Assembly (NCBI GenBank): GCA_963682055.1
Contig: OY821750.1
Location: 932,501 to 996,500 of the forward strand
Direction: 5' to 3'
Source: Primula veris
Taxonomy: Eukaryota; Streptophyta; Magnoliopsida; Ericales; Primulaceae
DNA length: 64,000 bases
In this document: piece after piece, positions 6,084 to 61,242 of the stretch
Layout: every line of letters starts with the position of its first letter
How positions within the stretch are numbered: position 1 is the stretch's first letter
The notes under the pieces: model-generated
The model's database searches: none
The model's input: only the letters and a program-made list of their open reading frames with translations
What the model was told of the DNA's origin: nothing
Translations under genes and position numbers: made by a program

Positions 6084-6304
6084 TAGTTCTTTTGATTAAA
6101 AGAATTTAAGATTAAATGGCTAAAAACTGCGGTATATTAGTAAAATCTAGGCTACATTTTGTTTAAAAACGTATTACTATTAAACCCTTTTGCCCCTCTG
6201 TAGTTGATGTTTTAGTTCTTAAAAATTGTATTGAAGATTGTATTGTTGCTAAAAATAATAGACATGTTAAATTTGGTAAGCTGACAATTTATGTTACAAA
6301 CTTA

Positions 6305-24977: not shown

Positions 24978-25021
24978 CTTTACCAGAACACAGGATCCAC
25001 ACCAAGTATATCTGATGTGAA

Positions 25022-25033
25022 GCTCTGATACCA
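25022..25033 (-). other. Primer binding site of aberrant Sirevirus
   Basis: TGGTATCAGAGC on the minus strand, two bases inside the LTR end at 25036. It is identical to the site at 2631-2642. Confidence 0.9.
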
Positions 25034-25035
25034 AT

Positions 25036-26152
25036 TGAAATTCCTATCTGCAGTTCTAGTTGCAGTTTTGCAGTTAGGTTCCAAGTGAAGTTGCAACCAC
25101 AGTTGGAACCTAAGTATATTGATGGACAGAACAGTGTAGTTAAATGTACTTGAATTAAATCACACGCACATTTAACAACGGAATTCATCCAACTGGGCTA
25201 CGTCTCCGGGGCACTTACCCAGATTATGATATTATAAAAGCTTACAATATAGGATTCAAGTCTTAATGAAAAACTCTCAGACTCCCTCTAGGTTTTTCTG
25301 CCTATCTCTATATTGCTTCTACCTTATAACTACCACTCAAAATATCAATGGCATCCCACCATTGTTTTATTTTAAAAGCTCACTGTGTATTCTCTCAAGA
25401 ATGAGTTCTTTATAATTTAGAACACTCACCTTTTACAAGCATAGTTATCAACTATATAAAGAGGTAAAAACAATCTTCTATCTTCAAGATCTTGATGATT
25501 GCTTTTTACTCTTTTGATTGGCTTCAATCTTTCCATATAGCACAAGATGCTTCAGCGTAGGATTGACCTCAATCTTCATAATAAAGTACCTGTTTAATAA
25601 CTAGCTTGAAAATAGGAGTTAATCTTTTTCTAAAACAATGAACATATAAGATAGTATCTTTTAGAGATAAAGTCTTTCTAAATATACATATAAAACATTA
25701 ACTCCATATTTTATTCAATTTTAAACGTATCATACTGGTTTTGATAAAGAACATAGATTGAAACACGTGATAAAGATTTGCATAAGAATAGAGATTTAGA
25801 TTGCTTAGTTTAAAGTGAACATATCTTTAAAAACTATTCTCCTTATAACTTTTAAGAAACATCTTTCTTATCACTTTAATATTCTCAATATACATAAACT
25901 AAATCTTTAAGAACATATGAGAATATATCCTGCATACTTTAAAATAATTAATCATCATTAAAGAGTAGTAATGCAGAATTAAAGAATTGAACAGAATCCT
26001 ACAGAACAACAGGTTGGAACTGTGGTTGCAACTGAGGTTGCAACCTTACTTGAAACCAAAAGGCTGTTTCAATTCTTAACATTCAACTATAGTTATTTAG
26101 TTCAAACCAATAGACAACAAATAGTATAAGGGCCAAAAATCTGATCCTAACA
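25036..26152 (-). repeat. 5' LTR of aberrant Sirevirus (1117 bp)
   Basis: It has TG...CA ends and is nearly identical to 2645-3761. It carries the same opposed 34-nt GTTGCAAC modules near both ends. The right flank ATAAC matches the left flank of the element at 15157-15161. Confidence 0.94.
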
Positions 26153-27417
26153 ATAACTCATAATTCCAAATTATATGGTTTTATATTTAATTTGTACTTA
26201 ATTACAAGAGGAAATTAATTCGAAAAATGGCGCAATTGTATAAACTAACTAGTAATTTGAAAATTGTATAAAAAAAAGCTTAAATTATAGAGCATGAATT
26301 CGGAAATTAACTTCTACATATATGTCGCATTTTGTAAATTCATGCCACCTTTAGGTTGTTGGCTACAATAGAAATGACTTCTACAATTACTTCCAATTCT
26401 CACTTGTTAAAATAATTGGAATCTTTCCAATTCATAAAATATTGGGTTAAGATAGAGTTCAGTTTTCATGCACGTACTACAAGAAAAATCTAAGCAGTCA
26501 CACACTCTCTGTTAAGTGTTGGTTTCCGTGTACGAAATAACGATTATACAATAATAAAAGACTAAACAGAAATGATCAAAAACCAGTGTAATCTTTATTA
26601 ATTTCGAATTGGAATTGAAATTACAGATTACAACATGCAGGTACTGAATTGAAATTAAAGCAAACGTTATTCAGATTATTATGAATTAATAATTTGATGT
26701 ACTGAATTGGAATAAATAGAAACTGTCGGACTGGAAAGTATAGACTTAACAGCCGGACTGTTCTGATTGAAATTGAAATTACATGACTGAATTGAAACTA
26801 TTTTAATTACAGAATTGAATTTACAGAATAAAACTGTACTTTAACGAAATTACAGAAAGGTAAAAACAGAATTGAAAAGTTACAGCTAAGTACAGGAAAT
26901 TAAAATACTGAAATAAAAAATACAGAAATGTAAATTGCAGAATTTAAATTGCGGTATTAAAGTACTGAATTGAAAAGACAGAAAAATAAAAGACGAGCCG
27001 ACTGTTAGATAGTCTGCCCTTAACCGATATTCGCCCAACCACCTTAAGATTTCTGGTTGCGTTGGCGCTTCGATCCCAAGATACAACGTCTCGGATGACT
27101 CGTCAGAAACTGGCGACGAGTCAAGGTCGAGCTGTTGGTGGGTAGTTCTCTCTGTTTCTAATATGCTATGAGGAAAAATATATATGTTGTTTTCAGAATA
27201 AAAAATGGGTGTTTATAGAGAGTGAATTCGTGTTTTGAATGAGAGGGGGAGGCTGCCTCTTATACAGGATTCTGAAACCGCAGCCTTTAATGTGGTCATT
27301 TAATTCTAGGAGTTACATCCCCAGAATCCGTCTCCATTACTGCAGGAGTTTCAACCTTGCTGGAACTTTAAGGATTGCTCTTGTAAATATACAAAAGTCT
27401 CTTTTTCAGTTTAGTAC
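26153..27417. other. Unidentified AT-rich stretch, right copy
   Basis: This is the duplicate of 3762-5030 with hardly any change. It has the same GAATTGAAATTAC-rich part and the same unrecognised minus-strand ORF (27086-26886). Because it adjoins the target duplication, its first bases are the original sequence downstream of the pectinesterase gene. Confidence 0.5.
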
Positions 27418-27491
27418 AAGACCCGAGACCCAAGACCCGAGACCCGAGACCCGAGACCCAAGACCCAATACCCAAGACCCAAATCCCAAAT
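27418..27491 (+). repeat. Heptamer minisatellite (ACCCRAG)n, right copy
   Basis: It is the same array as at 5029-5095 with one additional ACCCGAG unit, the clearest length difference between the two duplicated segments in this part. Confidence 0.85.
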
Positions 27492-27526
27492 CCAGTTGTT
27501 TAATAATTGATCTAAAAGGATGAGAT

Positions 27527-28479
27527 ATGTTAGATGTAGTGAAAAAAATACATTTAGTGTACTGTACTAACTGTTTTTAACGATTTAGGTACCATACTAC
27601 CAAAATTAACAATTGACGTACTGAATTATCATAATGTTCACAATTCAAATACCACTGTTAAATTAGTTTGATGTAAGTTAGTTTTAATTTTCATTTTGGT
27701 CATATTTTTTGTAATTTGTATAAATTTAACCCTTAATTTTTTTAAAATGTCTCATTTTAGTATAAATTCCAAAATATATAATTATATCATATATATATAT
27801 ATATATGTGTGTATGTAATACACAAACACACACACACATATATGTTATATATGTTATATTAATGTATGTATAAAAATATATGTAATATAATGCATGTATA
27901 CATATTATTGCAAATAATGTAAATTTTAGATGATTTTTGTGCATAAAAAAAATTATAAATACTTAATAAAATATATTCTATTTATAAAAAATGAATACTT
28001 TTTTGAAAAAAATAACAATTTTCTTTCCGTTTTTTCATGAAAGTATTCAAATAATGATGTGGCCTCAAATAATCTTTGCTCGAATGTCATAAATCTAAAA
28101 CTTACTTTATTTTCGTTTTAGAGAAAGTGTAAAAAAATAATAATTTTTTTATTTTAGAAAAAAAATCAAAGAAAATCTAGTCAAATAATATGTTTTTTTA
28201 ACTGACATACTTATTATGTATGTATATGTATGTATTTTAGTAGAAAAATTATAAATTGTAATGTTTATACAATTTATACAAATTTATACAAATTACAAAT
28301 AATATGACCAAAATTAAAAGTGAAACTAAATTTCATCTAACTAAATTAACGTCAGTACCTGAATTGTGATTATTATGATAGTTCAGTACGTCAATTGTTA
28401 AATTTGGTAGTCTGAAATCTAAATCGTTAAAAAGCAGATATTACAGTACACTAAATGTATTTTTTCCCATGTATAACAT
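27527..28479. mobile_element. MITE-like element with long terminal inverted repeats, right copy
   Basis: Duplicate of 5129-6083, with the same roughly 230-bp inverted arms and AT-rich centre including a TA/TG/CA simple repeat (27788-27845). There is no coding capacity. Confidence 0.7.
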
Positions 28480-28688
28480 TAGTTCTTTTGATTAAAAGAA
28501 TTTAAGATTAAATGGCTAAAAACTGCGGTATATTAGTAAAATCTAGGCTACATTTTGTTTAAAAACGTATTACTATTAAACCCTTAGTTGATGTTTTAGT
28601 TCTTAAAAATTGTATTGAAGATTGTATTGTTGCTAAAAACAATAGACATGTTAAAATTGGTAAGCTGACAATTTATGTTACAAACTTA

Positions 28689-29413
28689 CAGTTAAACCTC
28701 TTATATACACTTACGTGATCGGAAAAAATTATTCATTTAGCCAGTTTATTAATTTATCGATAAATTAATAAATTATTCATTTATCAATAATGAATATTTA
28801 TTATTTTAGATCAAGATATCTAAACATTATATGATGTCATTTCTAATTTACGATATAGAAATGTGATGAATGCTGAACATATTTTGAACTATCCTAACGA
28901 GAATGATGCAATTATGGAATCATCTACAGACGAAAAAATTATTCAATCGGTAATGAACAATGATAATGAAAATGATCCGGAACCAGATAATAGTAGCGTT
29001 ATACCAAATGTGTCGTCAAATGAGTCATTTCAAGCAATAGTCAGCTTAAGCAACTACTTGCTCCAACATGAGCAAAATATTCCGGAAATTATACAACTTT
29101 TACAAAATGTCAAGGATGAGCTTCATTTTGGTTTAGCTGGAAAAAAAAAATCAACTATAGATACATATATATTTTTTTAAATAATTATTGTGATTGTATT
29201 GTTAATTGATTGAAAATTTCGGTCTACGTTATATATTTTTCTTTATAAAATTTAATAATTATTACTTTATATTTTTATTGGGCCCTTAAGTATTCAAATT
29301 TTTTTTATTACTTAATGCATTTAGTAAGAATATTACTTTACTCCATTGGCCCAACTCGGGACCGGAAGAAATTATTATATTAGCGAGGTTATTATTTTAT
29401 CGAGGTTTAACTG
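28689..29413 (+). mobile_element. Pogo/Tigger-like DNA element, right copy
   Basis: The ends CAGTTAAACCTC and GAGGTTTAACTG are exact 12-bp inverted complements, with TA on both outer sides (28687-28688 and 29414-29415). It is 725 bp and contains only the last part of a transposase-like ORF. These ends are better preserved than in the left copy, which has an inserted T. Confidence 0.85.
28863..29180 (+). pseudogene. C-terminal part of pogo/Tigger-like transposase, right copy
   Basis: A 105-residue ORF: acidic, Asn-rich N-terminal half; a helix (NYLLQHEQNIPEIIQLLQ); then a lysine-rich end with STIDTY. It lacks the CENPB helix-turn-helix and the DDE catalytic core, so it is not a functional transposase. 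It is longer than its twin at 6485-6679. Confidence 0.6.
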
Positions 29414-29945
29414 TAATTGATTTCTATGGTTCTTGGACAACCAATGAATACGAATAATTATTGAGGACGAGGCGTTTGTGAATTAGTGAAAGCGACTTTT
29501 TCTCCGAGTAACTGAGATGCAATACATACTTTATTTTTGCCCGCGAATCACAGTTACATCCTTTCATGCATGGCTTAGAAAATAGTCTTCTCTAATTTGC
29601 CTAGATGGTGAATTGTCAGCATATACATTTACTATTCAGAAAGAAAAAGAAAAAACAAGCAATACAGAAACTGTCGATCCTCGGAAATGTGTTCTGTTGT
29701 TACATGTATAAACAAGTTCAAAATCACGATTAAAATCTTGAGTCTTCAGTGACCCAATATCCAGCTGCTGCAGTGGAGTTTCAGTTCTTCTTCGAAGACT
29801 TCATCATACAAAAATAGGATAGAAAAATTGTGTAAGATGATGAAAAATCGTTTTCCTTTACGTTTATAATCTGCAACTGGTTCGTAAAGAAATTGGGCTC
29901 TTTCACTTTTTTTTTTGATAAGCAAAAAAAAATAGTTGAACATAC
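29414..29945. other. 3' flank of the DUF3783 gene, last exon unresolved
   Basis: After the donor at 29945 (GTATGT) a short final exon and 3' UTR are expected here. Candidate coding pieces exist on the minus strand around 29900-29850, but none joins exon 8 with a good acceptor and frame, and the reading differs between the two duplicated copies because of indels in an A-run. I leave the C-terminus open. Confidence 0.4.
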
Positions 29946-32900
29946 CATCATTTCATGATCCCCCATAATCTCTTCTATCAACTCGGAAATTGGTTTATCG
30001 GCACTGTTGGGGACAAGAGCTGCAAATACAGCTGGTTCCAGACCTGTACAAGTCAAAGATTTTAATTATTTATACGAGTTGTATCGCTTGTCCAAATATC
30101 ATCCGATGCTTAAATGGAAATTATTTAGGTGTGGATTTCGATCCGGTTTATGGACTTGGTTCGTTGCAACTTTTAAGCTCAGTTCTTTTTTCTTTGCCTA
30201 AAGGCTGGACCATATTTGATTTTTACAGCTTAAATTACAAGGTTTTCTGGAATTTTGGCTCTAAAAGGCTTAGATTTAAGTTAAAAGGACCAAACTTTCT
30301 TCTCAACCTCTTAAATAAACCAACTTATTGCTTTAAAGATGCACTCCTATACGAGAATCACAACAAACAAAAAGTTTTCAAGACGATTCAAACTGCTTTT
30401 CCAAAAGAACCATAAGGAGAACAAAAGCCATTCTGAATATTCACAAAATTCAGTTCATACGAAAATAGTATTGTGTAGACCGATGATAGGAATTAGGATG
30501 CAGCTTCGAAGCAAATAAGCTGACTTATCCAAGGTTATGAGAAATATATTTTCTTTCAGTAATGTCCGATTATTGAGGCCAAGAAAGCAAAATTACTCTG
30601 GCTTATAACTGACATGTAAATGAAGTAAAACTAAAAAGCTAGAAAGCAAAATAAAAAACTTAAAAGATGCAACCAAATAAGCCTTTTAAAGTACCAGCTT
30701 CTGGAAAGGCATCAATGAACATCATCATCTCCTCTCCTGTGAGACCAGAGAAGAAACATATACGAGGAACCGACATAGCAATCTGCACAACACACGGTGC
30801 GTTGTTAGAGAGAGAGTTTACACTACCCTTAAAATGATCCTGAGTAAATATTTACACAGATCTGTATACAGATTAATTGAAGTAGCCTTTTCTTTTCTTT
30901 TTTTGTTTATAATTAACCCTCACTTTCGAGGCGTAAGAGATCGAACCGTCTTGGTGAGCGAGTTATACTAGGTGGCTGTTTCTTTATTTTTACTTGTTTG
31001 GCATTTAAAATTCTTTGCGAGATTTAGAGTGCCACCTAATCAATCTGTGTACATATCTGTGTATATAGAATTAAAAAAGAGCTTTCCTTAGCAGAGTCCA
31101 GATTTGGTTGCTTTGTATTAACTGCCTCCCAAATGGAGCGACTAATCATGTCTTCTGTACAATATATAACCTGCAATAGAGATATACGCATATCACCATA
31201 TCGAAAATAACAGGGAAAACAGTATTTTTCACAAATAATGCTGTGTAAACCAACCAGGCAAACATTTTTTATCCAAATTTTTCGTTTTAAAGGATTGGTA
31301 CTATAGACACATATAGTGAAAGGGATTTTTTTCGAAAACTTAGGAATGCTAAAACATATAATTTGGATGGAAACGTTTAAAATAGCCTAAGACCATGAAG
31401 GAATGCTAAAAACGAAGTATAATAAGTATTTATACCATTTCAGAAAAACAGTAAGCATCATTCTGTGAAGGACCGAATTTGTTGAAAATGTAAGATTGCT
31501 TAAAGCAGATTATGAAAATGAAAAGGGAAAACATGGAAATACCTCTAGAAATTCACCATCCATATCATTTAGAAACCGTTGTATCTGCAAGAAAGTATAC
31601 ACGATAAGTAAGAAAACTCGAACAATTTACTCTCGATCTAGATGATTATTCCCTATGATCTGCAATGTAAAAAAAACTACTGAAAGATTGATTTTTTGCA
31701 GTACAAAAAACTAGAATTTATAGCAGTTTTAAGGAACTAACCAAACAAAGTCACTTATAACCAATACGTGGTTAAAAACGGAAAGCTAGCAGACAATAAA
31801 ATGACCATTTCCTTATAGTGAAATCTCAACACAAAAAGTAGCTTATGAGCTAGCAACAAAACAACTCAAGTTGAAAAAATAACGAACAAAAACTGCAAGC
31901 TTTCGAGTTACAGCATTAACTGGCCATTCCCTCGTTTTTCATGGGAGAACTTTGTATGAGTGATTACAATATACAATTAAATGAAATTTCTAGGATACCA
32001 ATGCTAACACTATGAGAAACATAATTAGAGTTTCGAACAAGAGGGACGGAAACAAATTTTTTTACGTAGTGTCATTTCACTCGTGATTTTGTGTACGAAA
32101 TATACAAATGTTCGTCGAAATAATCCTTAACGAATAAGCGGCATTTCTAGAATATAAACACTTTAGACTGCATGCTCTTTACCTTTGCTGCCTCCTCCAC
32201 ATTGAAGCCCAATAACAATAAAGCCTGAAAAAAAAACACCAAACTGAAACTCTTTGAATAAAAATTAATTTGGTAGTTGGTATATGACTATACGTAGATA
32301 GAATATTTAAAAGCGAAAAAATGTCAATGAACTAACCAGAACTTACAGGTGGACCAAATTGGGGATCATCGGCATTCAAAGGAACAAATTTTGAATCCTC
32401 AACCAAATCGTTTGGAACCCCTAAGCACAACGCAAGTATAAATTTAAATTTTCAATGAATATTAATTATATCTAGCAAAAATTGAATCAAATGAAGGAGA
32501 AACAAAAGAATGCTAAGCTTATAAACCTGAAGACAATCTCTAGTAGCTTGGGACAAAATATCATCAAGTAAAGCGTAATTGCGCTTGTTTGATTGTACTT
32601 TTAAGCACAAATTATTTGGTTATCACTTTTATAGTTTGCAGTGTGTTTGATAATTTCGATTTGTTGGTTTAAACACTCGGTTTCTCGTAGTACATACTGT
32701 TAAAAAAACTCTTAAGAACACAATCATTACATCAACCACATATAACCCATCTTTTTTTATATTAAAAACTACAATTATGTGTGTTTAAAACATGATGAAA
32801 TGTATAAGAAATGGGTTGTTTATTACTCTTAAATTCTTACCTATTCATTTTATCAATAACATCTAATATAACCCCAATTTTTTTATTTCCAGCTCTGATT

Positions 32901-46745: not shown

Positions 46746-47412
46746 TCTGTTAGTGTTACACTCGAGAACTGGACAAAAATGAAATCTTGTCCCTTAATAG
46801 GTGAATTTTATGTTATGCATGTATTTATATATATAAATATAATTTCCATTTTCCTTTTGAGTTTTTTTTGACAATGTACTAACTACTAAAAAAAAGTAAT
46901 GAAAGTAACTGTTCATGATTAAAAGTTAATTATATTACCATAAAACCCCTGCCATCCAAATTTATCGTGCGTTTACACTTGCCGCTGGATCACCGGAATA
47001 TAATATAACAAGGTGTAATTAAGCCGGAGAACCACCAATTTAATTTCACAAAAGTCGATAGTTTTTTTTGTTTTAACCTCGTTTTTTACTAAACCATCCG
47101 GTATCCATGGACCCGACAATTCGAACCAAGTAAAAATAGTCACCAAATCTCTGCCTAATAATTACTTTACATCGCTACATATTTTCAAGAGTGGTATCAA
47201 TAATATTTGTATTTTGATTTAATATTTTATTTTTTGTGCAATTTTGTACCGTGTAGCAAGTAATTATTGCAAATTTGTAGTATTATATACTACAAAATCC
47301 TACAAATTATTCTTTAAACTATACCATTTTCCGTCACTTTTTTACACTAGTGTCCAAATTAACGAAATAAATATTGAATGTCATCAAATAATTTTCAGAA
47401 TTATATGCATAT
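46746..47412. other. Spacer left of the copia array
   Basis: AT-rich and without a recognised gene. The last part contains ATGTCATCAAATAAT (about 47377-47391), which is inverted at the other side of the array (61077-61092), so the array stands in a small natural palindrome. Confidence 0.4.
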
Positions 47413-47415
47413 TGT

Positions 47416-47621
47416 TGTAGGATATTATTGGACTTATCTTGGTCTTTCCTAGCATATGTAACTCTATTCTCTATTATATAAAGAGGGTCAGGGTCTCTTG
47501 ATGTATCTCTCTATACACTTGTATTAATGAATAAACAATTCGTCTGTTGTCTCTCATACCTCTCTCTATATCTATACATATCTCTATATATATTTATAAC
47601 GAGCTAATATGTCACACAACA
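47416..47621 (+). repeat. LTR1 of the copia array
   Basis: TGTAGGATATTATTGG to GTCACACAACA. Contains TATATAAAGAGGGTC (possible TATA box) and an ATGAATAAACAATTCG stretch that could serve for polyadenylation. The internal region follows with CGTTATCGGCAC. Confidence 0.92.
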
Positions 47622-49029
47622 CGTTATCGGCACTTTGCTCGCGAAGAATAGAATATACACTCACGGATATTGGAGATTTATCCGGGTTTTTAGGGTTTTG
47701 CTATATCGACCTTCATCAACATACCGTGCGTAAGGTACCGAATTCAAAACTTAATTTATTCCATATATGTGATCGCACGTATTATTTTATGGATAACTAA
47801 AACATGATAAATATCCCGTAGTATATAATCCATGTGTATTAGAGTTTGTTACTTGTATGGATAACTATATATGATCGTAACACACATATTGTTGATTATA
47901 AAATCATATTTGTTGATAAGATCATACAAAATAACCCAAATCATGTAATTGTAAAACATGTATTAATCTGTCGGATTAAATCTGCAACAAACTGAAACGT
48001 ATGTACTGATTTGTAATTCTCTGAAAGCTGTAAACTATTCTGTAAATTACTCAAGGACTAAACTGAAACTTGTCTGAAATTATGGACTGAAGCAGTAATA
48101 ACGCTGTAAATATATATATAGTTTGCTGAAATTACACGGATAGTCCCTGTAGTATATTACATGTATAAAAACAGTATATATGTGTTATAAAAGTCAATAT
48201 TCGGTCTAAATATTCACCCACATGCATATATATATTTATTAAAAAGGCAAGTGAATAAAAATTGCATGTTAATTGAATAAATTGATATGTTTCCATGTAT
48301 ATTTAACCACTTTGCATGTTAAAAATTACCATATATAGAATTAATTGGTAATTAAAAATATATTGTTTTGCTTGCATGTTAAAACTACCATGTATAAAAT
48401 TATTCATATGGCGATAAACATAGATAATTGATTGATATCTTGTTAGCGTAATCATATCTTTTGATATTATCATATATAAATATCACATATGCCAGTAAAT
48501 TATTGGATTGGATCTAATTGATTTGATTTGATATGTTAGAATTTTTATGGATTGATTGATAATCTTAAATTGATTTGTTTATAACACCAAATCTCCTGCA
48601 TGATTAGATAGATCCTAAAATATATTTACTGCCTGTTTATATATATATGTGGTTAATCTAGATAGATATTCTCTATGCTGTTAATATTATTGCCATATAT
48701 AAAATGCGAAAATCATATATATTCACATTTAAGTTGGAAAAATTATGAATCTTCCCCAAAATAGGCTCACCTATTTGGATACGATGTCTAGGAAAGATAA
48801 AGGCGGAAGTCGTTCTCCTAATGAGGTCGGTTTTTAAGAGGCATTCGTGCCCACCCCCCTCACCGTCTTTCCTGGTCGTGTTCAAATAGAGCTACCGAAA
48901 GGGGTTGACTAAATAATAATTTCCCCGAGTGTGTTTATATAGTGATGTATGTTTCGCTGAATTGGTGTTTCAGTATCGACCCGTTGTTCGATCAATGAGA
49001 ACCGATTCACATGAAAAGCAAAACTAATG

Positions 49030-52000
49030 TTTTCGAACCTGTCGTTTCGAAAAAAAGTTTGTGCTTGTGCAAACCATAAACATATAAACCAGTCGTTTTA
49101 TTTGATAAATAATCCAGAACTCCCAACACATGTTGGATGCCATCTATGATGAGAAAAATCGTAAAACATACTTGCGAAATGACTGTTTAAACGTTGATTT
49201 TAATCCGTCACCACATGTTACTCACCCTGATGTGTGAAAAATGTGATGCCCAATTTTTTTTTGGATGCCATCTTTGATGAGTAAAACACGAGTTTGTTGT
49301 TACTAGCGAGATGAAAGATAAGGCGTTGATGATATTCCGCCGCCACATTTGAGACGTGATGACGTCTATGGTGAACAAATGTCTGAAATTGACATATTGG
49401 AGCAATCCTTCACCAAAATACTAGCTTGGAAATTGTATTCGATAAGCTGTATCGTGAATTTATATTCACCATGTTCCTTTATCGCCCATATGTTATTGGA
49501 TAAGAAAATTACCCCGGTGAGTAGTTTTAATCCTATTGGGTCAATGGCGAATTGTTTGCCTGATATTAATGCTCTTCGTGTACAATTTTTTTTCCACGAA
49601 TCGAGAACCGAGACAAGTGCTATTTGTCTCGAACTGTCGTGATCCCGATGAATCGCTTAGCCAAGAGAGATTTTAGACAATCGTCAAAATCGAAAACCTG
49701 TGGCTCCAAGACAGTAATTGAAAGGAACAATATGGCCCGTTGTCACAAAGGAAGAGATAATGCTCAATGAGGCAACTCTATGCTATAAAGACAAATGTCA
49801 TGCACGGTTACTCCTTAAATAGTTTAAAACTATTATAAAGGTGAAAAAACCGATGCTAATGTGGTTAAAGCTAACTGAAAGGAAATTTTTGAGACCCCCG
49901 ATTTTGTGGCTCAAATGAGTTTGATACCTTTCTTTATTGATTTTGATAAATCATTGAGCCATTTTTTCGCTCATTTGGATTATGTTTTCTATTTGGATTA
50001 TTATTTTTCCATTTGGACCATACTTTTGGATTATGGTTTGCCTGTTTATGAAATTTCTCGAAATAATTTAAAGTGTTTTGAGCAAATTCCTTTGACAAAT
50101 GTGACCAAACTTTAAATTATGAAATTTTAGGCAATACTTGTGGGGTAGTTGATTTTTTTTGGAAATAGTGGGTAACAGTGTACCACATAATTTCACCAAC
50201 TATTTGCCTAAAAAAAGTACTCAGTGACAATGATTCTGGACCTGTCGTTCCAAATCAAAATCTTTGGTAAAACCAAATTGATTTGTCAAATATGAGGTCT
50301 TATACTCATGTAGGTCCTGCCGTACCTTGTTGAGTTATAAAATATTCGAGAAAACCAGTGTTATTTGGTAATAGCTCATGAAAGAATTAAAATTTCTTTA
50401 CATAGGCTCCATTCAATACGACCAAAAGCGTATTTTAGAGGAGTTGAAATGTCTTTCAAGTGGTTGCTATCACATTCTTTAAAGCATTTAAAGTTACCTT
50501 ATCATTTCGCCTGTCGTCGAAATGATAAATGATTTAAATGCTAAGACATGATTGTCTGTACTATCATTCGCCTGTCGTCGATTGATAAAGAGTATTTTGA
50601 TATTGTGGCATTGACCGGATGAGATATTCCCAGGTCAAAAGACGATGCTTGATTTATAATCGCATCGCATTTGGATTCTCTCTGAGAATATATTTCGTAA
50701 TTAATCCGAAATTCATGCCACTAATGCTCACTTTGAAAGACTAGTATGTGTAAAGATCACGAAATGAACTCGTAGAATTCTTGTAAAGAATTGAAGGAGT
50801 TATTGTGGACTTATCCAACCATAAGACGGACCATAAATTTAAATGGTTATGGTTGATGCATCGACAATATGGTCACATTTTAATGTTGTCCACATAAATG
50901 CAGCACTTTCCAAACTTTTAGCCCTATCATTAAGTTGATGGCTCATGATCCGGATTATCCTGAAAAGTCTAGTCGACTTGATAATTCCGAAGAGTAATAA
51001 TCAAAATTTCGATTTGAATTACTTGAGTTTGGAAATTGAAATTGAACATCCTGTCGATTATGTTTAGACCCAAATGGACTCACGGAAAGTTTGATGATGC
51101 GACTGCAAATGATTGCATGCATTTCTTGGTCTTGCGCACCAAGATTTATATTTCCGTGTGGGGTTATGCTATTTTGCTGCATTAGTCCGTTATGAGGCCC
51201 ATAGACACTCAAACACCATATGCGTACCAGCTGGTTACTGGTTATGAGCCAGAAGTCTCATATTAACGCATGTTTAGAGTGATTAATTAATATTTTGATT
51301 GAGCCGCTCTAGCGTTCAAAATATGGACCTCTGAAGGGGACACAAATCGATTATGAATCTCCTGCCTATCATTTGATAGAGTAACCTTGGCAAGCGATCT
51401 CTTTACCGCATGATATGCGAAAGTGACATCTCTAAGACTGTTCTCCCCGTCGTTAGGGGGAGATTTGCACGTTACCGTTGATAAGGAACGACGTGAAGTA
51501 ACGTGGCATAACCCACTCAGTCTTAGCTTGATCCCCAAAACTGCACTTAGTGATAAGTAAGTGCATAGACTCCCTCAAGTTTAACTAAATGCCAGACGCA
51601 TTTAATGACTTTATGAGATGTCACGAGATCATTTATACCTGCTGCAAAATGCTTGCAAGGATAGACGTCCCTGTTGGACGCCGTGTTCCTGTCGTAACAC
51701 GTTGCTTTGGCCGAACCCGCCAAGCAAAGGACGCTGTCGTCGGCCGTCAGTCTGTCGTCCTTCCCAAGATACGAGGAAGTTGACCGGTTCTTAATTCGTT
51801 CAGCCCCAGAGGTGGTGAACTGAAACTCGTTTGTCGCACGAGATTATAAAGGATCAAGGAGATGTGTGATTTCCTCCTCATCCTAAGAATCTCGAAATAT
51901 CTGTCGATCATGATATCTTAGACGATATTGAAGCGAAACGAGACTGTCATTGATTACTTGTTCATATACTCGGTGACGACTGATAATATGAGCAAATTAT

Positions 52001-53760
52001 GACAGAGAACCATGTACCGTTGCCTGAAGTCAACGTAGAATAGACTGGACTAATGGAAACTTGCAATCCAAGTAGACTCCTTAGCGAAAGTGTGTTCGGA
52101 CCTGTTGCTCTAACACCACCAATGTTAAACGAGTTCGTTTATTTGGTTATTCGTAAGGAAGAGTGATGAGAATAATGAGATTGTAGAATGCTCGCCTAGT
52201 AGCGCAAGGCTTCTCTCACACCTTGGAATTGATTACGAGATGGTTAATTTTCTCGTAATGGACATTAGAACAGTCCCCTACTTTACCAGTTTAGTAGTTT
52301 CCGAAAAACTGAGTATGCAGCCATGAATGTGGTCACGGTTTTATCCCTATGGGGATTTAGACAAAGAGATATAGATGAAGGTCCCTGTGTGACTTCATAT
52401 GCTTTAATCAAGTAGTTCCTAACCACGGAACACGATCTCAATTGACTGAGACGTTCACTATATGGATTAATATAATCCGAGCGGATGTGGTATACCGCCT
52501 AAGTGAGTACTTGATTAGCTTGGGATACTTGAACAAGTATTATGCCCTTGCGTGTTCTATTACGCGATCCATTTTTGGATTTGCCTTCGAGATGAAGGAT
52601 CTTGGGAAGACACGGTAGTGACTCAACCTGATGATTGAGTCCCGTAAAGATTGAATCTAAGTCCATGATTCAGACTACACCCAGAAGGTGTTATGACGTT
52701 TTAGTCATCATGACGCTAAGTCGTCAGATTCTCCCATGATCGTTCGATCACTAGACATTGATATAGACCCAGTCCGTCCCTGATGAGACGATGAAGAGAT
52801 ATTGAACCATAATGTTCATATCTAAGTACAATAAGCGCATCATTGTACTTGGTCTAATGTGCTAGGACGAACATCTCGTCTGTTGTGAATGGTATAGCTC
52901 GACACAACATCGCGCTAACACGCTGCCATCGAAATGGCACTAAAGACACATTCCCTTACCTTATGGTAATTTTGGAAGTGGGCTAGTTTATCCCATTTGC
53001 GTCATCGAGTGTACCTACCCCCTTCGGTACTCGAATTAACGCAACCCTTTTTCGGTTATACCGATGCCGGTTACTTATCAGACCCGCATAAGGGATATTC
53101 CTAACATGCTATGTCTTTACCATTTGGAATAAGGCGACATCTTGGAGGTCTTGGAATGACTCCAAGTGAATCACTCTGATCTATTCGTGCTCTATGAGAC
53201 GACTAGAGAGTGTATATGGCTTCGAGCTAGTATTAGTCATATTTGAATTACATATGTTCTGTCTCACGATCCAGATAAAACACTTGTCATAGAAGACAAC
53301 TTGTTGTTATTGATCAAGAGAGACATGAGTAGATTATGCTATTTAGCATTTCTTGCCGAAATTAATCTTCACAAATGAAGTTTAAGAGCATCCAGTTGAA
53401 TGCTCGTTCTATTCCACGTTAGATTTTCTTGCATCCGGTCGTATGTAAGTAAATGAGACATCCAGTCGAATGCTCGTACTCTTTCTTGGAATATGAAATC
53501 TTTGCACCCAGTTGTGTGCAAGTGAGGGGGAGCATCCAGGTGAATGCTTATTGCACTAATTACTACTTAGTCGAAATCTTCGCACCCTGTCGTGTGCAAG
53601 TGAGGGGGAGCATCCAGTCGCATGCTCGTGTACTCTTTTTGTCCTTAGACCAAGGTTTTTTCCCACTGGGTTTTCCTTGGCAAAGTTTTTTAGCGAGACA
53701 CGTTCCCATCATACCTCACTTAAGATTGCCGAAATTAGGGGGAGTATCCTGTTGTATACT
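49030..53760 (+). repeat. Series of palindromes with constant 8-nt loop, unit 1
   Basis: Each palindrome has arms of its own sequence around a loop close to CCTGTCGT. Clear cases (arm, loop start): TTTTCGAA 49038; ATAAA 49089; TGGA 50241; AGGT 50316; TTATCATTTCG 50510 (11 bp perfect); TATCATTCG 50571 (one mismatch); CGTGTT 51688; GAGCAT 53392; CTTGCAT 53435 (one G-T pair); TTGCAC 53508; AGCAT 53536; GCAC 53586; GAGCAT 53614; AGTAT 53748. Loops seen: CCTGTCGT (six times), CCAGTCGT, CCTGCCGT, CCAGTTGA, CCGGTCGT, CCAGTTGT, CCAGGTGA, CCAGTCGC and CCTGTTGT. The same series recurs 6724 bp downstream. Confidence 0.85.
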
Positions 53761-54050
53761 TCTTACCACTGTGTACTCTTTTGTCCTTCGACTAGAGATT
53801 TTTTCCCACTGGGTTTACTCTAGCAAGGTTTTGATGAGGCACATGTTTTGTGGTTGATCCCCTACTACTACCACTGTTGCACTCTTTTTCCTTCGATCAG
53901 AGATTTTCCCATTGGGTTTGCTCTGTCAAGGTTTTGATGAGGCACACTGTTTCGTGGTTAGTTAATTACATGGAATTTCGGCCTATATCATTCGGCTACA
54001 CAGTTTCTCCTAGGTACCGGCTTTGTCCCACACTGGGTTTTCCGGCCCTA
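53648..54050 (+). repeat. Four 3' hairpins with CCC-AYT-GGG core and co-varying stems, unit 1
   Basis: The recurring phrase TTTTCCCACTGGGTTT is embraced by different stems: CCAAGG/CCTTGG (53650-53655 with 53675-53680), CTAGAG/CTCTAG (53792-53797 with 53818-53823), CAGAG/CTCTG (53898-53902 with 53921-53925), and TAGG..CCGG/CCGG..CCTA (54011-54020 with 54042-54050). The core CCC/GGG pair is kept, and the outer pairs change on both sides together. Such units are repeated about every 110-140 bp just before the 3' LTR. Confidence 0.8.
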
Positions 54051-54126
54051 AGGTTTTTATGTGTTTAGCACTGCGAATGAACTCGACTCACATCGACAGC
54101 ATGAAGACGAAGAAATCAAGACGTCC

Positions 54127-54139
54127 AAAGGGGGAGATT
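54127..54139 (+). other. Polypurine tract, array unit 1
   Basis: AAAGGGGGAGATT lies directly before LTR2. It is the plus-strand primer site. The same tract stands at 60851-60863. Confidence 0.8.
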
Positions 54140-54345
54140 TGTAGGATATTATTGGACTTATCTTGGTCTTCCCTAGCATATGTAACTCTATTCTCTATTA
54201 TATAAAGAGGGTCAGGGTCTCTTGATGTATCTCTCTATACACTTGTATTAATGAATAAACAATTCGTCTGTTGTCTCTCATACCTCTCTCTATATCTATA
54301 CATATCTCTATATATATTTATAACGAGCTAATATGTCACACAACA
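54140..54345 (+). repeat. LTR2 (middle LTR) of the copia array
   Basis: A 206-bp LTR shared by both units, preceded by a polypurine tract and followed by the CGTTATCGGCAC leader. It carries the TTCCC variant like LTR3, so it serves as 3' LTR of unit 1 and 5' LTR of unit 2. Confidence 0.92.
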
Positions 54346-57300
54346 CGTTATCGGCACTTTGCTCGCGAAGAATAGAATATACACTCACGGATATTGGAGA
54401 TTTATCCGGGTTTTTAGGGTTTTGCTATATCGACCTTCATCAACATACCGTGCGTAAGGTACCGAATTCAAAACTTAATTTATTCCATATATGTGATCGC
54501 ACGTATTATTTTATGGATAACTAAAACATGATAAATATCCCGTAGTATATAATCCATGTGTATTAGAGTTTGTTACTTGTATGGATAACTATATATGATC
54601 GTAACACACATATTGTTGATTATAAAATCATATTTGTTGATAAGATCATACAAAATAACCCAAATCATGTAATTGTAAAACATGTATTAATCTGTCGGAT
54701 TAAATCTGCAACAAACTGAAACGTATGTACTGATTTGTAATTCTCTGAAAGCTGTAAACTATTCTGTAAATTACTCAAGGACTAAACTGAAACTTGTCTG
54801 AAATTATGGACTGAAGCAGTAATAACGCTGTAAATATATATATAGTTTGCTGAAATTACACGGATAGTCCCTGTAGTATATTACATGTATAAAAACAGTA
54901 TATATGTGTTATAAAAGTCAATATTCGGTCTAAATATTCACCCACATGCATATATATATTTATTAAAAAGGCAAGTGAATAAAAATTGCATGTTAATTGA
55001 ATAAATTGATATGTTTCCATGTATATTTAACCACTTTGCATGTTAAAAATTACCATATATAGAATTAATTGGTAATTAAAAATATATTGTTTTGCTTGCA
55101 TGTTAAAACTACCATGTATAAAATTATTCATATGGCGATAAACATAGATAATTGATTGATATCTTGTTAGCGTAATCATATCTTTTGATATTATCATATA
55201 TAAATATCACATATGCCAGTAAATTATTGGATTGGATCTAATTGATTTGATTTGATATGTTAGAATTTTTATGGATTGATTGATAATCTTAAATTGATTT
55301 GTTTATAACACCAAATCTCCTGCATGATTAGATAGATCCTAAAATATATTTACTGCCTGTTTATATATATATGTGGTTAATCTAGATAGATATTCTCTAT
55401 GCTGTTAATATTATTGCCATATATAAAATGCGAAAATCATATATATTCACATTTAAGTTGGAAAAATTATGAATCTTCCCCAAAATAGGCTCACCTATTT
55501 GGATACGATGTCTAGGAAAGATAAAGGCGGAAGTCGTTCTCCTAATGAGGTCGGTTTTTAAGAGGCATTCGTGCCCACCCCCCTCACCGTCTTTCCTGGT
55601 CGTGTTCAAATAGAGCTACCGAAAGGGGTTGACTAAATAATAATTTCCCCGAGTGTGTTTATATAGTGATGTATGTTTCGCTGAATTGGTGTTTCAGTAT
55701 CGACCCGTTGTTCGATCAATGAGAACCGATTCACATGAAAAGCAAAACTAATGTTTTCGAACCTGTCGTTTCGAAAAAAAGTTTGTGCTTGTGCAAACCA
55801 TAAACATATAAACCAGTCGTTTTATTTGATAAATAATCCAGAACTCCCAACACATGTTGGATGCCATCTATGATGAGAAAAATCGTAAAACATACTTGCG
55901 AAATGACTGTTTAAACGTTGATTTTAATCCGTCACCACATGTTACTCACCCTGATGTGTGAAAAATGTGATGCCCAATTTTTTTTTGGATGCCATCTTTG
56001 ATGAGTAAAACACGAGTTTGTTGTTACTAGCGAGATGAAAGATAAGGCGTTGATGATATTCCGCCGCCACATTTGAGACGTGATGACGTCTATGGTGAAC
56101 AAATGTCTGAAATTGACATATTGGAGCAATCCTTCACCAAAATACTAGCTTGGAAATTGTATTCGATAAGCTGTATCGTGAATTTATATTCACCATGTTC
56201 CTTTATCGCCCATATGTTATTGGATAAGAAAATTACCCCGGTGAGTAGTTTTAATCCTATTGGGTCAATGGCGAATTGTTTGCCTGATATTAATGCTCTT
56301 CGTGTACAATTTTTTTTCCACGAATCGAGAACCGAGACAAGTGCTATTTGTCTCGAACTGTCGTGATCCCGATGAATCGCTTAGCCAAGAGAGATTTTAG
56401 ACAATCGTCAAAATCGAAAACCTGTGGCTCCAAGACAGTAATTGAAAGGAACAATATGGCCCGTTGTCACAAAGGAAGAGATAATGCTCAATGAGGCAAC
56501 TCTATGCTATAAAGACAAATGTCATGCACGGTTACTCCTTAAATAGTTTAAAACTATTATAAAGGTGAAAAAACCGATGCTAATGTGGTTAAAGCTAACT
56601 GAAAGGAAATTTTTGAGACCCCCGATTTTGTGGCTCAAATGAGTTTGATACCTTTCTTTATTGATTTTGATAAATCATTGAGCCATTTTTTCGCTCATTT
56701 GGATTATGTTTTCTATTTGGATTATTATTTTTCCATTTGGACCATACTTTTGGATTATGGTTTGCCTGTTTATGAAATTTCTCGAAATAATTTAAAGTGT
56801 TTTGAGCAAATTCCTTTGACAAATGTGACCAAACTTTAAATTATGAAATTTTAGGCAATACTTGTGGGGTAGTTGATTTTTTTTGGAAATAGTGGGTAAC
56901 AGTGTACCACATAATTTCACCAACTATTTGCCTAAAAAAAGTACTCAGTGACAATGATTCTGGACCTGTCGTTCCAAATCAAAATCTTTGGTAAAACCAA
57001 ATTGATTTGTCAAATATGAGGTCTTATACTCATGTAGGTCCTGCCGTACCTTGTTGAGTTATAAAATATTCGAGAAAACCAGTGTTATTTGGTAATAGCT
57101 CATGAAAGAATTAAAATTTCTTTACATAGGCTCCATTCAATACGACCAAAAGCGTATTTTAGAGGAGTTGAAATGTCTTTCAAGTGGTTGCTATCACATT
57201 CTTTAAAGCATTTAAAGTTACCTTATCATTTCGCCTGTCGTCGAAATGATAAATGATTTAAATGCTAAGACATGATTGTCTGTACTATCATTCGCCTGTC

Positions 57301-60300
57301 GTCGATTGATAAAGAGTATTTTGATATTGTGGCATTGACCGGATGAGATATTCCCAGGTCAAAAGACGATGCTTGATTTATAATCGCATCGCATTTGGAT
57401 TCTCTCTGAGAATATATTTCGTAATTAATCCGAAATTCATGCCACTAATGCTCACTTTGAAAGACTAGTATGTGTAAAGATCACGAAATGAACTCGTAGA
57501 ATTCTTGTAAAGAATTGAAGGAGTTATTGTGGACTTATCCAACCATAAGACGGACCATAAATTTAAATGGTTATGGTTGATGCATCGACAATATGGTCAC
57601 ATTTTAATGTTGTCCACATAAATGCAGCACTTTCCAAACTTTTAGCCCTATCATTAAGTTGATGGCTCATGATCCGGATTATCCTGAAAAGTCTAGTCGA
57701 CTTGATAATTCCGAAGAGTAATAATCAAAATTTCGATTTGAATTACTTGAGTTTGGAAATTGAAATTGAACATCCTGTCGATTATGTTTAGACCCAAATG
57801 GACTCACGGAAAGTTTGATGATGCGACTGCAAATGATTGCATGCATTTCTTGGTCTTGCGCACCAAGATTTATATTTCCGTGTGGGGTTATGCTATTTTA
57901 CTGCATTAGTCCGTTATGAGGCCCATAGACACTCAAACACCATATGCGTACCAGCTGGTTACTGGTTATGAGCCAGAAGTCTCATATTAACGCATGTTTA
58001 GAGTGATTAATTAATATTTTGATTGAGCCGCTCTAGCGTTCAAAATATGGACCTCTGAAGGGGACACAAATCGATTATGAATCTCCTGCCTATCATTTGA
58101 TAGAGTAACCTTGGCAAGCGATCTCTTTACCGCATGATATGCGAAAGTGACATCTCTAAGACTGTTCTCCCCGTCGTTAGGGGGAGATTTGCACGTTACC
58201 GTTGATAAGGAACGACGTGAAGTAACGTGGCATAACCCACTCAGTCTTAGCTTGATCCCCAAAACTGCACTTAGTGATAAGTAAGTGCATAGACTCCCTC
58301 AAGTTTAACTAAATGCCAGACGCATTTAATGACTTTATGAGATGTCACGAGATCATTTATACCTGCTGCAAAATGCTTGCAAGGATAGACGTCCCTGTTG
58401 GACGCCGTGTTCCTGTCGTAACACGTTGCTTTGGCCGAACCCGCCAAGCAAAGGACGCTGTCGTCGGCCGTCAGTCTGTCGTCCTTCCCAAGATACGAGG
58501 AAGTTGACCGGTTCTTAATTCGTTCAGCCCCAGAGGTGGTGAACTGAAACTCGTTTGTCGCACGAGATTATAAAGGATCAAGGAGATGTGTGATTTCCTC
58601 CTCATCCTAAGAATCTCGAAATATCTGTCGATCATGATATCTTAGACGATATTGAAGCGAAACGAGACTGTCATTGATTACTTGTTCATATACTCGGTGA
58701 CGACTGATAATATGAGCAAATTATGACAGAGAACCATGTACCGTTGCCTGAAGTCAACGTAGAATAGACTGGACTAATGGAAACTTGCAATCCAAGTAGA
58801 CTCCTTAGCGAAAGTGTGTTCGGACCTGTTGCTCTAACACCACCAATGTTAAACGAGTTCGTTTATTTGGTTATTCGTAAGGAAGAGTGATGAGAATAAT
58901 GAGATTGTAGAATGCTCGCCTAGTAGCGCAAGGCTTCTCTCACACCTTGGAATTGATTACGAGATGGTTAATTTTCTCGTAATGGACATTAGAACAGTCC
59001 CCTACTTTACCAGTTTAGTAGTTTCCGAAAAACTGAGTATGCAGCCATGAATGTGGTCACGGTTTTATCCCTATGGGGATTTAGACAAAGAGATATAGAT
59101 GAAGGTCCCTGTGTGACTTCATATGCTTTAATCAAGTAGTTCCTAACCACGGAACACGATCTCAATTGACTGAGACGTTCACTATATGGATTAATATAAT
59201 CCGAGCGGATGTGGTATACCGCCTAAGTGAGTACTTGATTAGCTTGGGATACTTGAACAAGTATTATGCCCTTGCGTGTTCTATTACGCGATCCATTTTT
59301 GGATTTGCCTTCGAGATGAAGGATCTTGGGAAGACACGGTAGTGACTCAACCTGATGATTGAGTCCCGTAAAGATTGAATCTAAGTCCATGATTCAGACT
59401 ACACCCAGAAGGTGTTATGACGTTTTAGTCATCATGACGCTAAGTCGTCAGATTCTCCCATGATCGTTCGATCACTAGACATTGATATAGACCCAGTCCG
59501 TCCCTGATGAGACGATGAAGAGATATTGAACCATAATGTTCATATCTAAGTACAATAAGCGCATCATTGTACTTGGTCTAATGTGCTAGGACGAACATCT
59601 CGTCTGTTGTGAATGGTATAGCTCGACACAACATCGCGCTAACACGCTGCCATCGAAATGGCACTAAAGACACATTCCCTTACCTTATGGTAATTTTGGA
59701 AGTGGGCTAGTTTATCCCATTTGCGTCATCGAGTGTACCTACCCCCTTCGGTACTCGAATTAACGCAACCCTTTTTCGGTTATACCGATGCCGGTTACTT
59801 ATCAGACCCGCATAAGGGATATTCCTAACATGCTATGTCTTTACCATTTGGAATAAGGCGACATCTTGGAGGTCTTGGAATGACTCCAAGTGAATCACTC
59901 TGATCTATTCGTGCTCTATGAGACGACTAGAGAGTGTATATGGCTTCGAGCTAGTATTAGTCATATTTGAATTACATATGTTCTGTCTCACGATCCAGAT
60001 AAAACACTTGTCATAGAAGACAACTTGTTGTTATTGATCAAGAGAGACATGAGTAGATTATGCTATTTAGCATTTCTTGCCGAAATTAATCTTCACAAAT
60101 GAAGTTTAAGAGCATCCAGTTGAATGCTCGTTCTATTCCACGTTAGATTTTCTTGCATCCGGTCGTATGTAAGTAAATGAGACATCCAGTCGAATGCTCG
60201 TACTCTTTCTTGGAATATGAAATCTTTGCACCCAGTTGTGTGCAAGTGAGGGGGAGCATCCAGGTGAATGCTTATTGCACTAATTACTACTTAGTCGAAA

Positions 60301-60863
60301 TCTTCGCACCCTGTCGTGTGCAAGTGAGGGGGAGCATCCAGTCGCATGCTCGTGTACTCTTTTTGTCCTTAGACCAAGGTTTTTTCCCACTGGGTTTTCC
60401 TTGGCAAAGTTTTTTAGCGAGACACGTTCCCATCATACCTCACTTAAGATTGCCGAAATTAGGGGGAGTATCCTGTTGTATACTTCTTACCACTGTGTAC
60501 TCTTTTGTCCTTCGACTAGAGATTTTTTCCCACTGGGTTTACTCTAGCAAGGTTTTGATGAGGCACATGTTTTGTGGTTGATCCCCTACTACTACCACTG
60601 TTGCACTCTTTTTCCTTCGATCAGAGATTTTCCCATTGGGTTTGCTCTGTCAAGGTTTTGATGAGGCACACTGTTTCGTGGTTAGTTAATTACATGGAAT
60701 TTCGGCCTATATCATTCGGCTACACAGTTTCTCCTAGGTACCGGCTTTGTCCCACACTGGGTTTTCCGGCCCTAAGGTTTTTATGTGTTTAGCACTGCGA
60801 ATGAACTCGACTCACATCGACAGCATGAAGACGAAGAAATCAAGACGTCCAAAGGGGGAGATT
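54346..60863 (+). pseudogene. Degraded gag-pol internal region, copia array unit 2
   Basis: Virtually the same sequence as 47622-54139, with the same pol islands at +6724 (RLVAQGFSH at 58917-58943, GYTDAGYLSDPHKG at 59778-59819). The one base difference noticed is A at 57900. Every stop and indel is shared, so the decay is older than the duplication. Confidence 0.88.
55754..60774 (+). repeat. Constant-loop palindromes and CCC-AYT-GGG hairpins, unit 2
   Basis: Exact repetition of the unit 1 series at +6724. The longest palindrome (11-bp arms) has its loop at 57234-57241, the CGTGTT pair surrounds 58412-58419, and the 3' hairpins lie at 60372-60774. Confidence 0.85.
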
Positions 60864-61069
60864 TGTAGGATATTATTGGACTTATCTTGGTCTTCCCTAG
60901 CATATGTAACTCTATTCTCTATTATATAAAGAGGGTCAGGGTCTCTTGATGTATCTCTCTATACACTTGTATTAATGAATAAACAATTCGTCTGTTGTCT
61001 CTCATACCTCTCTCTATATCTATACATATCTCTATATATATTTATAACGAGCTAATATGTCACACAACA
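60864..61069 (+). repeat. LTR3 of the copia array
   Basis: Final 206-bp LTR. It ends CACACAACA and is followed by CATAT, the presumed target duplication. Confidence 0.92.
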
Positions 61070-61242
61070 CATATGCTATTATTTGATGACATTATATTTA
61101 CGTTATAAAACACCAAAGAGGATTTTAAAAAGACTTCACATTTTTTTGTGGTCTAATAACGCGCAAAAAGGGCAAAAGTTCAAAGATAGAAAAGAAATGT
61201 AAAAGTCTTATCATTAAACAACCAAGATGTTATAAGAACTAA

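Follow-up and report, generated by a model that had tools for sequence, protein, structure and literature searches.

Structure and lineage of the array

The window, a stretch of 64,000 nucleotides (nt) from Primula veris (contig OY821750.1, positions 932,501 to 996,500), contains an array of a decayed copia retrotransposon whose internal region carries many palindromes around a near-constant loop. These palindromes are, near certainly, a family of RNA hairpins that act in cis and belong to one copia lineage. Self-BLAST placed the array at 47415-61070, in the order LTR, internal region, LTR, internal region, LTR (LTR, long terminal repeat), with a unit of 6724 bp and copies that are 99.97% identical. 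The LTR is a 208-bp repeat on the + strand; the 5' LTR lies at 47415..47622 and the other copies at 54139-54346 and 60863-61070, and the first and last copies are 99.5% identical. The internal region studied here is 47623-54138 (6516 nt). A primer binding site of the half-tRNA-Ile type, CGTTATCGGCAC (47622..47633, +), adjoins the first LTR, and a polypurine tract, GGGGGAG, is read in the sequence ahead of the next LTR (54130..54136, +); because of these two features the + strand was taken as the sense strand. GGGGGAG tracts precede the 3' LTR at 53526, 53604, 53738 and 54130, and three of these lead into a hairpin. In PMC2829016, multiple polypurine tracts are described as found only in Sireviruses.

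The tRNA-Ile(aat) genes of the same genome hold GTCGTGCTAATAACGC and CGTGCTAATAACG, and the primer site in the window has two mismatches to the tRNA-Ile complement. In L051, an element of another plant described below, the primer site is CGTTATCAGCACG, with one mismatch opposite the first anticodon base. A passage of PMC6317226 gives the Bianca primer site as the complement of half-tRNA-Ile and reports that the first anticodon base of that tRNA is edited. Judged by its half-tRNA-Ile primer site, the element is a predicted member of the Bianca lineage of Ty1/copia, and the type of primer site would point away from Sirevirus. The best protein match of the decayed pol was P0001, a polyprotein of Centaurea solstitialis that carries PF00665, PF13976 and PF07727. 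The tblastn matches of the window's gag-pol to P0001 lie in order, with integrase before reverse transcriptase (RVT_2) as in Ty1/copia, but stops and frame changes occur throughout.

Hairpins with one loop type lie on the sense strand

An earlier note on this DNA had described at least fourteen palindromes with unrelated arms around a constant 8-nt loop, CCWGTYGW. The pattern CC[AT]G[AT]NG[AT] occurred 19 times on the + strand of one array unit and not at all on the - strand, and 14 of the 19 sites had perfect arms of at least 4 bp, which bears out the count; a wider loop gives more. In window 1-47000, none of the 20 such sites on both strands had perfect arms of at least 4 bp. With the 8-nt loop written as CCNGNNGN, the internal region held 19 perfect hairpins with arms of 4-11 bp, and with the 7-nt loop CCNGNNG three hairpins with arms of at least 4 bp, all sense. 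Together they arise from 37 sense sites of CCNGNNG(N), with no hairpin at the 4 antisense sites of the internal region or at the 76 sites of the window flanks. By chance, roughly one site in 256 would have arms of at least 4 bp at a given loop length. The five sites singled out earlier, with loops at 49038 (8 bp), 50510 (11 bp), 51688, 53392 and 53614 (6 bp each), were recovered letter for letter. The loop is indeed near-constant and mostly 8 nt long, but CCWGTYGW is too narrow a description of it, as CCTGATGA and CCAGAAGT illustrate. Nor is every arm unrelated to the others: gagcat/atgctc and ttgcac/gtgcaa recur in diverged tandem repeats of the 3' cluster.

The fixity of C1, C2, G4 and G7 in 17 aligned window hairpins is partly built in, as the sites were found via CCNGNNG. 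Without this filter, the internal region showed 25 loops of 8 nt on stems of 5 bp or more; 12 matched CC[ATG]GNNGN and one more was CCCGTTGT. Other loop lengths, from 4 to 12, gave 0 or 1 hairpin per element and strand.

Pairing was measured at sites chosen by the loop alone (CCNGWNGW) on the sense strands of the window internal region and of three relatives, L033, L034 and L044. Over 65 distinct sites, which are not all independent as the four sources are kin, Watson-Crick pairing was 0.88, 0.82, 0.83, 0.69 and 0.62 at positions 1-5 and reached background by position 8. The mean was 0.766, compared to 0.304 (standard deviation 0.026, maximum 0.400) in 2000 shuffles of the 3' arms, and pairing dropped to 0.20-0.32 when the arms were slid by 1-3 nt. 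In the window alone, 16 of 26 CCNGWNGW sites had four perfect pairs (0.1 expected by chance). Pairing was near background, though noisy at these numbers, at nine antisense sites and at 60 sites taken from nine other copia elements in this genome.

Upon tallying CCNGNNG(N) in the window, L033, L034 and L051, 137 sense sites yielded 51 8-nt and 13 7-nt hairpins, and the 40 antisense sites yielded none. The nine other copia elements had hairpins at 1 of 94 sense and 0 of 83 antisense sites; these controls were drawn from 150 listed reverse transcriptase matches, varied in frame length and score, and some may share one lineage. In all, the comparisons draw on nine copia controls, a single genome and a single contig from outside it. 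The comparison with shuffled sequence that had been proposed earlier did not refute the hairpins: shuffles and control elements yield almost none.

A covariance model, likewise proposed earlier, was trained on the 17 window hairpins and run on 12 other sources (89.8 kb). It gave 28 matches at E<=3, of which 27 were in L033, L034 or L051, all sense, with 21 at E<0.1; the nine controls had no match at E<=1 and one at E 1.3. Two matches were in L051, and these are more independent, the element used for training being related to both L033 and L034. In the window the model gave 42 matches at E<=1, all in the array and all on the + strand, 21 per copy, a number that includes the 17 training sites and their repeats.

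A known RNA family was rejected for lack of an Rfam match: in window 47000-54500, Rfam 15 gave nothing above its gathering score, with one match (E 0.23) under its cut-off. Kissing-loop dimer signals were also rejected: on the sense strand of the internal region, the loop motif is found 37 times but its reverse complement only 4 times, and the latter never forms a 7- or 8-nt hairpin loop. RNAfold draws a C2-G7 pair in 3 of 7 hairpins. As a structural model, the optional eighth base suggests one of two arrangements: C1 pairs with G7 around a loop of five bases and leaves an extra base on the 3' side, or G7 pairs with C2.

The polarity also bears on a function at the DNA level, in which the palindromes would form cruciforms or be bound by transcription factors. 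PMC2829016 considers a role of this kind for the palindromic repeats of Sirevirus LTRs. The sites described here are internal and all point in one direction, which a double-stranded site does not need, and we consider this explanation very improbable.

Positions of the hairpins

All hairpins of the catalogue lie on the + strand. The most 5' one (47811..47826; 4 bp, loop CCCGTAGT) is isolated near the 5' end, has no covariance match at E<=1 and may be due to chance. The hairpin at 48975..48992 (5 bp, loop CCCGTTGT) has homologous hairpins in relatives, with CCTGTCGT and other loops, and that at 49030..49053 (8 bp, loop CCTGTCGT at 49038) is common to relatives. The leader hairpin at 49084..49101, with loop CCAGTCGT, has 5 bp here and 8 bp in relatives, and a 4-bp hairpin with loop CCTGATGT (49222..49237) was seen in none but the decayed copies, three in number, among those aligned below.

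At 50237..50252, the loop CCTGTCGT is enclosed by tgga/tcca, where relatives have ggg-CCCGTCGA-ccc, the first pair being A-T versus G-C. A 4-bp hairpin with loop CCTGCCGT (50312..50327) is present in 12 of 12 aligned copies. The perfect 11-bp hairpin at 50499..50528 (loop CCTGTCGT at 50510) lies in a stretch absent from nine relatives, and at the site of the hairpin at 50562..50587 (8 of 9 pairs, loop CCTGTCGT at 50571) L033 and L034 have GCGGGMGC between the same flanks. The hairpin at 51243..51262 has 6 bp around CCAGAAGT; relatives have 4 bp around CCCGATGT, formed by codons of YEPDVSHL. Hairpins with 7-nt loops are located at 51586..51604 (CCAGACG, 6 bp; 5 bp in L033 and L034), 51666..51680 (CCTGTTG, 4 bp) and 52677..52691 (CCAGAAG, 4 bp). 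For the hairpin at 51682..51701 (6 bp, loop CCTGTCGT at 51688), L034 has the same arms with a 7-nt loop, CCGGTTG, and L033 has A-T instead of a G-C pair in the arm and a loop outside the family, CATGTTG. Further downstream are hairpins at 52018..52035 (5 bp, CCTGAAGT), 52620..52641 (7 bp, CCTGATGA) and 52775..52790 (4 bp, CCTGATGA at 52779), the last holding two in-frame TGA.

The 3' cluster comprises hairpins at 53386..53405 (6 bp, loop CCAGTTGA at 53392), 53428..53449 (CCGGTCGT, arms imperfect), 53502..53521 (6 bp, CCAGTTGT), 53531..53548 (5 bp, CCAGGTGA), 53582..53597 (CCTGTCGT, 4 bp followed by one mismatch), 53608..53627 (6 bp, CCAGTCGC at 53614) and 53743..53760 (5 bp, CCTGTTGT, common to relatives). 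Those at 53531, 53608 and 53743 overlap the end of a GGGGGAG tract. The second array copy holds the same set at an offset of +6724 (55697..60486, +).

Two perfect hairpins of 7 and 8 bp at 51442-51463 and 51542-51565, with loops GTCGTTAG and GTGATAAG, are outside the family; they are kept in L001, and in L002 but for one base. Elsewhere in the window, a direct duplication of about 8 kb (1-7976 and 22392-30301) is 97.9% identical, its copies lying 22.4 kb apart.

Relatives in the same genome carry the hairpins

The same genome (436.5 Mb) holds copies with 90-91% pol identity, among which 31 were scored of 16916 first-look candidates. The pol was stop-free in 20 of the 31 scored matches, and these open-frame copies are presumed to be autonomous, judging from their frames. 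For the decayed family, 40 of 2250 first-look candidates were scored, with 97-100% identity and including the two of the window. The leader hairpin of the 49084 type, with exact 8-bp arms, was found at 2038 places in the genome (control, 1), and its loop was CCNGTYGW at 1562 of these (control, 0).

We aligned nine relatives, most of them with open pol frames, and three decayed copies. Each of the 12 copies had 7-18 sense hairpins (8-nt loop, arms of at least 4 bp) and no antisense ones, and the hairpins of the nine relatives were located in the leader, gag, pol or 3' untranslated region (UTR). L034, for instance, has four hairpins (loops at 71-224 of the sense-oriented locus) ahead of the gag match at 238 and further ones in gag, pol and the 3' UTR; L044 is without the shared leader. 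Many sites of the relatives have homologous counterparts among the window hairpins, with which they share the arms but not the exact loop, although it is of the same type; the loop differences fall mainly at positions 3, 5, 6 and 8. The alignment proposed earlier, meant to expose coincidental loops in ordinary coding sequence, did not refute the hairpins either, since the relatives carry them themselves.

An element of another plant shares the motif

A scan of prokaryote contigs with the pol alignment gave one relative, L051 (NZ_QPKJ02000023.1, 5601 bp, from a Solirubrobacter sp. CPCC 204708 assembly), which is 60% identical over residues 4-1462. As its best-scoring named relatives are plant proteins (71-72%), we infer that the contig is plant contamination. 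The contig ends in a primer site and leader after an apparent LTR, as a tandem or circular form would. No further relatives came from viral_contigs or phages. Three actinobacterial plasmids (NZ_CP115454.1, NZ_CP115302.1 and NC_015657.1) were observed to carry a copia-like polyprotein with 25-30% identity to P0001, perhaps plant contamination as well. The earlier note had also mentioned a CAAGTTG-type core in the 3' part of other plant copia elements. This core was not confirmed: one derived 3' pattern had 0 matches in viral_contigs, which, as a virus collection, offers no real test of it.

L051 had 8-nt hairpins at 10 of 28 sense and 0 of 10 antisense sites, and four further hairpins with 7-nt loops. 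Pairing at positions 1-4 was 0.537 over 27 distinct sites versus 0.278 when shuffled, a value that none of 5000 shuffles reached. Arms shifted by -1 paired nearly equally (0.518 versus 0.554 unshifted) because of the 7-nt loops. Four hairpins with near-identical arms lie 3' of the primer site. The loops are mostly CCNGAAGN, and the preference is mostly for GAAG in L051 versus GTCG, GTTG and GATG in the window's kin.

At nine coding sites, at least one of L033, L034 and L051 has a hairpin of at least 3 bp. Two of these sites carry it in both plants; among the others, one pairs in L051 only with a 9-nt loop, three are found in L051 only and three in L033/L034 only. At the VFGPVVPTP site, the stem differs by a paired change between L033 and L051 (GGA..GTT versus GGG..GTC), giving TTTGG[A/G]-loop-[T/C]CCAA with both changes synonymous. 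A second homologous pol site also has a paired stem change, gtgtt/aacac versus tgcc/ggca.

These data speak to the idea that conserved amino acids merely happen to yield the motif, by chance or coding coincidence. Two pol sites do fall on conserved-looking residues (VFGPVVPTP and YEPDVSHL). However, the leader and 3' UTR sites are non-coding, the stem pair covaries at synonymous positions, the hairpins are missing from other copia elements and the shuffles already refute it, so that we find this explanation scarcely credible.

Origin and gain of hairpins

The earlier note had offered an insertion process that copies its own flank in reverse as an alternative to selection. Homologous sites are mostly of equal length, often with the same arms and only the loop letters changed, and lend such a process no support; mobile palindrome insertion was rejected for the same reason, since the majority of homologous sites align without length change. 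It had also been supposed that the palindromes disrupted the pol frame. This is wrong for most sites, which align without length change to the pol of open-frame relatives; 50510 does lie in the stretch absent from those relatives, and 52779 has two in-frame TGA. At 52779, nine relatives have ccgtc-CAAAGGAG-gacg and the window has ccgtc-CCTGATGA-gacg, so that 7 of 8 loop letters differ between identical arms. Because the window has two in-frame stops there, this hairpin is younger than the loss of coding.

The window has 19 8-nt and 3 7-nt hairpins in 6516 nt, compared to 9 and 3 in 5400 nt of L033 and 13 and 3 in 5700 nt of L034. In the aligned region, 8-nt hairpins number 18 in the window, 9 in L033 and 13 in L034; the two remaining decayed copies have 10 and 16. 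The counts fit gain under selection in sequence freed from coding, though the events are few and the ranges overlap. Considering ungapped aligned 8-mers only, non-motif 8-mers of L034 corresponded to window motif loops in 2 of 12 cases with arms of at least 4, 1 of 45 with arms of 3 and 8 of 3446 with fewer; for L033 the figures were 1 of 20, 1 of 45 and 8 of 3449, counts too small to carry weight.

Palindromes could in principle also be perfected without selection, by a mutational process in which, for example, reverse transcriptase switches templates. The Watson-Crick arms without wobble preference and the excess of other inverted repeats in the region, both detailed below, would suit it, as would one site at which five L033-type copies have ggtact-CTTTTGAC-catatc and four L034-type copies ggtact-CCTGTTGA-agtatc at equal length. 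Such a process, however, predicts no single loop sequence, loop length or strand, against the 0 of 40 antisense sites, and several sites have the same arms as in relatives and differ from them in the loop alone. We regard this process as improbable and already disfavoured.

A putative role in packaging

A selected RNA hairpin family, as the earlier note had suggested, is strongly supported by the polarity, the loop length, the open-frame relatives, the element of another plant and the paired stem changes. Each hairpin consists of a stem of about 4-8 bp, free in sequence, topped by C C N G N N G with an optional eighth nucleotide, and the hairpins lie in the leader upstream of gag, within gag and pol as far as the codons permit, and in the 3' UTR. 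The loop would be read by a protein, most likely the element's own Gag, with the stem merely presenting it, and the hairpins would act as scattered packaging or assembly sites on the genomic RNA. The polarity, the near-constant loop, the free but paired stems and the spread over coding and non-coding sequence argue for a cis RNA element with a lineage-specific partner, as do its presence in the leader, its retention in a derivative without proteins and the lack of it in other copia elements. The natural candidate for this partner is Gag, which has to select the RNA, and a derivative can be packaged in trans. The derivative, with its stop-ridden gag-pol, appears to keep and add hairpins, and it would retain them because such cis signals are still needed for packaging in trans. 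RNA of the non-autonomous BARE2 is packaged in trans in BARE1 particles in plants, according to a passage of PMC3735527. Multiple stem-loops that share a recognition motif along the genomic RNA, the hallmark of dispersed packaging signals, are present in the sequence. On balance we slightly favour the view that the hairpins are putative dispersed Gag-binding packaging or assembly signals. A further step, that a copia lineage marks its RNA with loop-specific Gag docking hairpins and that the derivative gained more of them in dead pol and outcompetes its parent in an arms race of cis signals, is offered only tentatively.

A serious rival, and a quite possible one, is that the hairpins are real cis-acting RNA elements whose partner is a host protein or host complex, with a role in export, stability, translational control or the evasion of silencing. 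The sequence evidence supports it just as it does Gag; hairpins also cluster in the 3' UTR, and adaptation to a host factor would likewise give different loop preferences in two plants. The lack of hairpins in nine other copia elements of the same genome, however, fits better with a partner encoded by the element.

Several observations weigh against packaging signals bound by Gag. Non-Watson-Crick arm cells comprised 15 G.U, 14 A.C and 31 others, with no wobble preference. In 31 decayed copies, loop diversity was 0.0454 versus a background of 0.0428, and arm diversity 0.0335 versus 0.0435 (P 0.15); as the loops vary like background and the arms not significantly less, the decayed copies look neutral. 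Loops differ between the window and L001 by 12.5% versus 5.1% elsewhere, and likewise in the other two full-length pairs. Only two of the nine coding hairpin sites have an 8-nt hairpin in both plants. Two further features of the region are not explained by the motif, namely its surplus of other inverted repeats and the lower folding energies of both strands: folding z-scores were -1.42 (sense) and -1.95 (antisense) over 35 windows of the element, and -0.30 and -0.36 over 42 windows of the flank. We set these z-scores aside as evidence because the excess of other inverted repeats is also found in 1 of 6 control elements, the flank, L033 and L034.

Loop hypermutation was suggested by the three full-length copies and not by the 31 decayed copies, and was rejected. 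As for inverted repeats with other loops, L041 pol and the coding sequence of L033 and L034 had 2-4-fold as many perfect ones as shuffles, and five other copia elements 0.7-1.5. In L042, two hairpins of 7 and 9 bp, at 6132 and 6202 after pol, have one 8-nt loop in common, GACCGATC; they may represent another repeated hairpin or a tandem repeat.

Comparison with known systems

No description of such hairpins was seen among the papers listed by literature searches, which covered open-licence papers. In our view, little is known of the way in which LTR retrotransposons of plants choose the RNA that they package, and it is a long-standing question why non-autonomous copies become more numerous than their parents. 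A compact motif that can be recognised by sequence in about two thousand copies makes both RNA selection and non-autonomous success testable, and could serve as a signature of mobilisable non-autonomous elements. If the packaging role is true, the idea of multiple packaging signals would be extended from RNA viruses to retrotransposons.

The apical loop of the iron-responsive element has a cross-loop C-G pair and an extra 3' nucleotide. C1-G7 with the optional N8 could form a similar arrangement, judging by analogy, but the loop sequence and the context differ here. Retrozymes are likewise non-autonomous plant LTR elements defined by an RNA motif (PMC4918200); they hold hammerhead ribozymes, unlike the hairpin family here, in line with the lack of an Rfam match in window 47000-54500.

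In PMC2829016, Sireviruses are reported to have multiple polypurine tracts, an inverted repeat at the 3' polypurine tract and palindromic LTR boxes. The element resembles them in having several GGGGGAG tracts, as well as palindromes, ahead of its 3' LTR. Most Sirevirus boxes, however, retain a CGG-CCG core and are found in LTRs, with some close to the envelope gene (same source), whereas here the loop is constant, the arms vary and the sites run along the internal region.

Ty1, also of the copia superfamily, has cis RNA structures comparable in kind, namely a packaging signal, a pseudoknot and dimer palindromes (PMC8396678; PMC5454406). The Ty1 structures lie near the 5' end of the RNA, unlike the hairpins here, and Ty1 Gag is reported to bind diverse RNAs with low specificity (PMC8396678, same section). 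There is also a likeness to viral packaging signals: in single-stranded RNA viruses and the pregenomic RNA of hepatitis B, multiple dispersed stem-loops with one apical motif serve as packaging signals, as set out in a portion of PMC6281560. As in that system, the element has many stem-loops along its genomic RNA with a shared apical motif and the rest variable. Compared to MS2, which the same portion gives a (x)xYA loop and a 5' bulged A, the hairpins described here, known from sequence alone, have a strict 7- or 8-nt loop.

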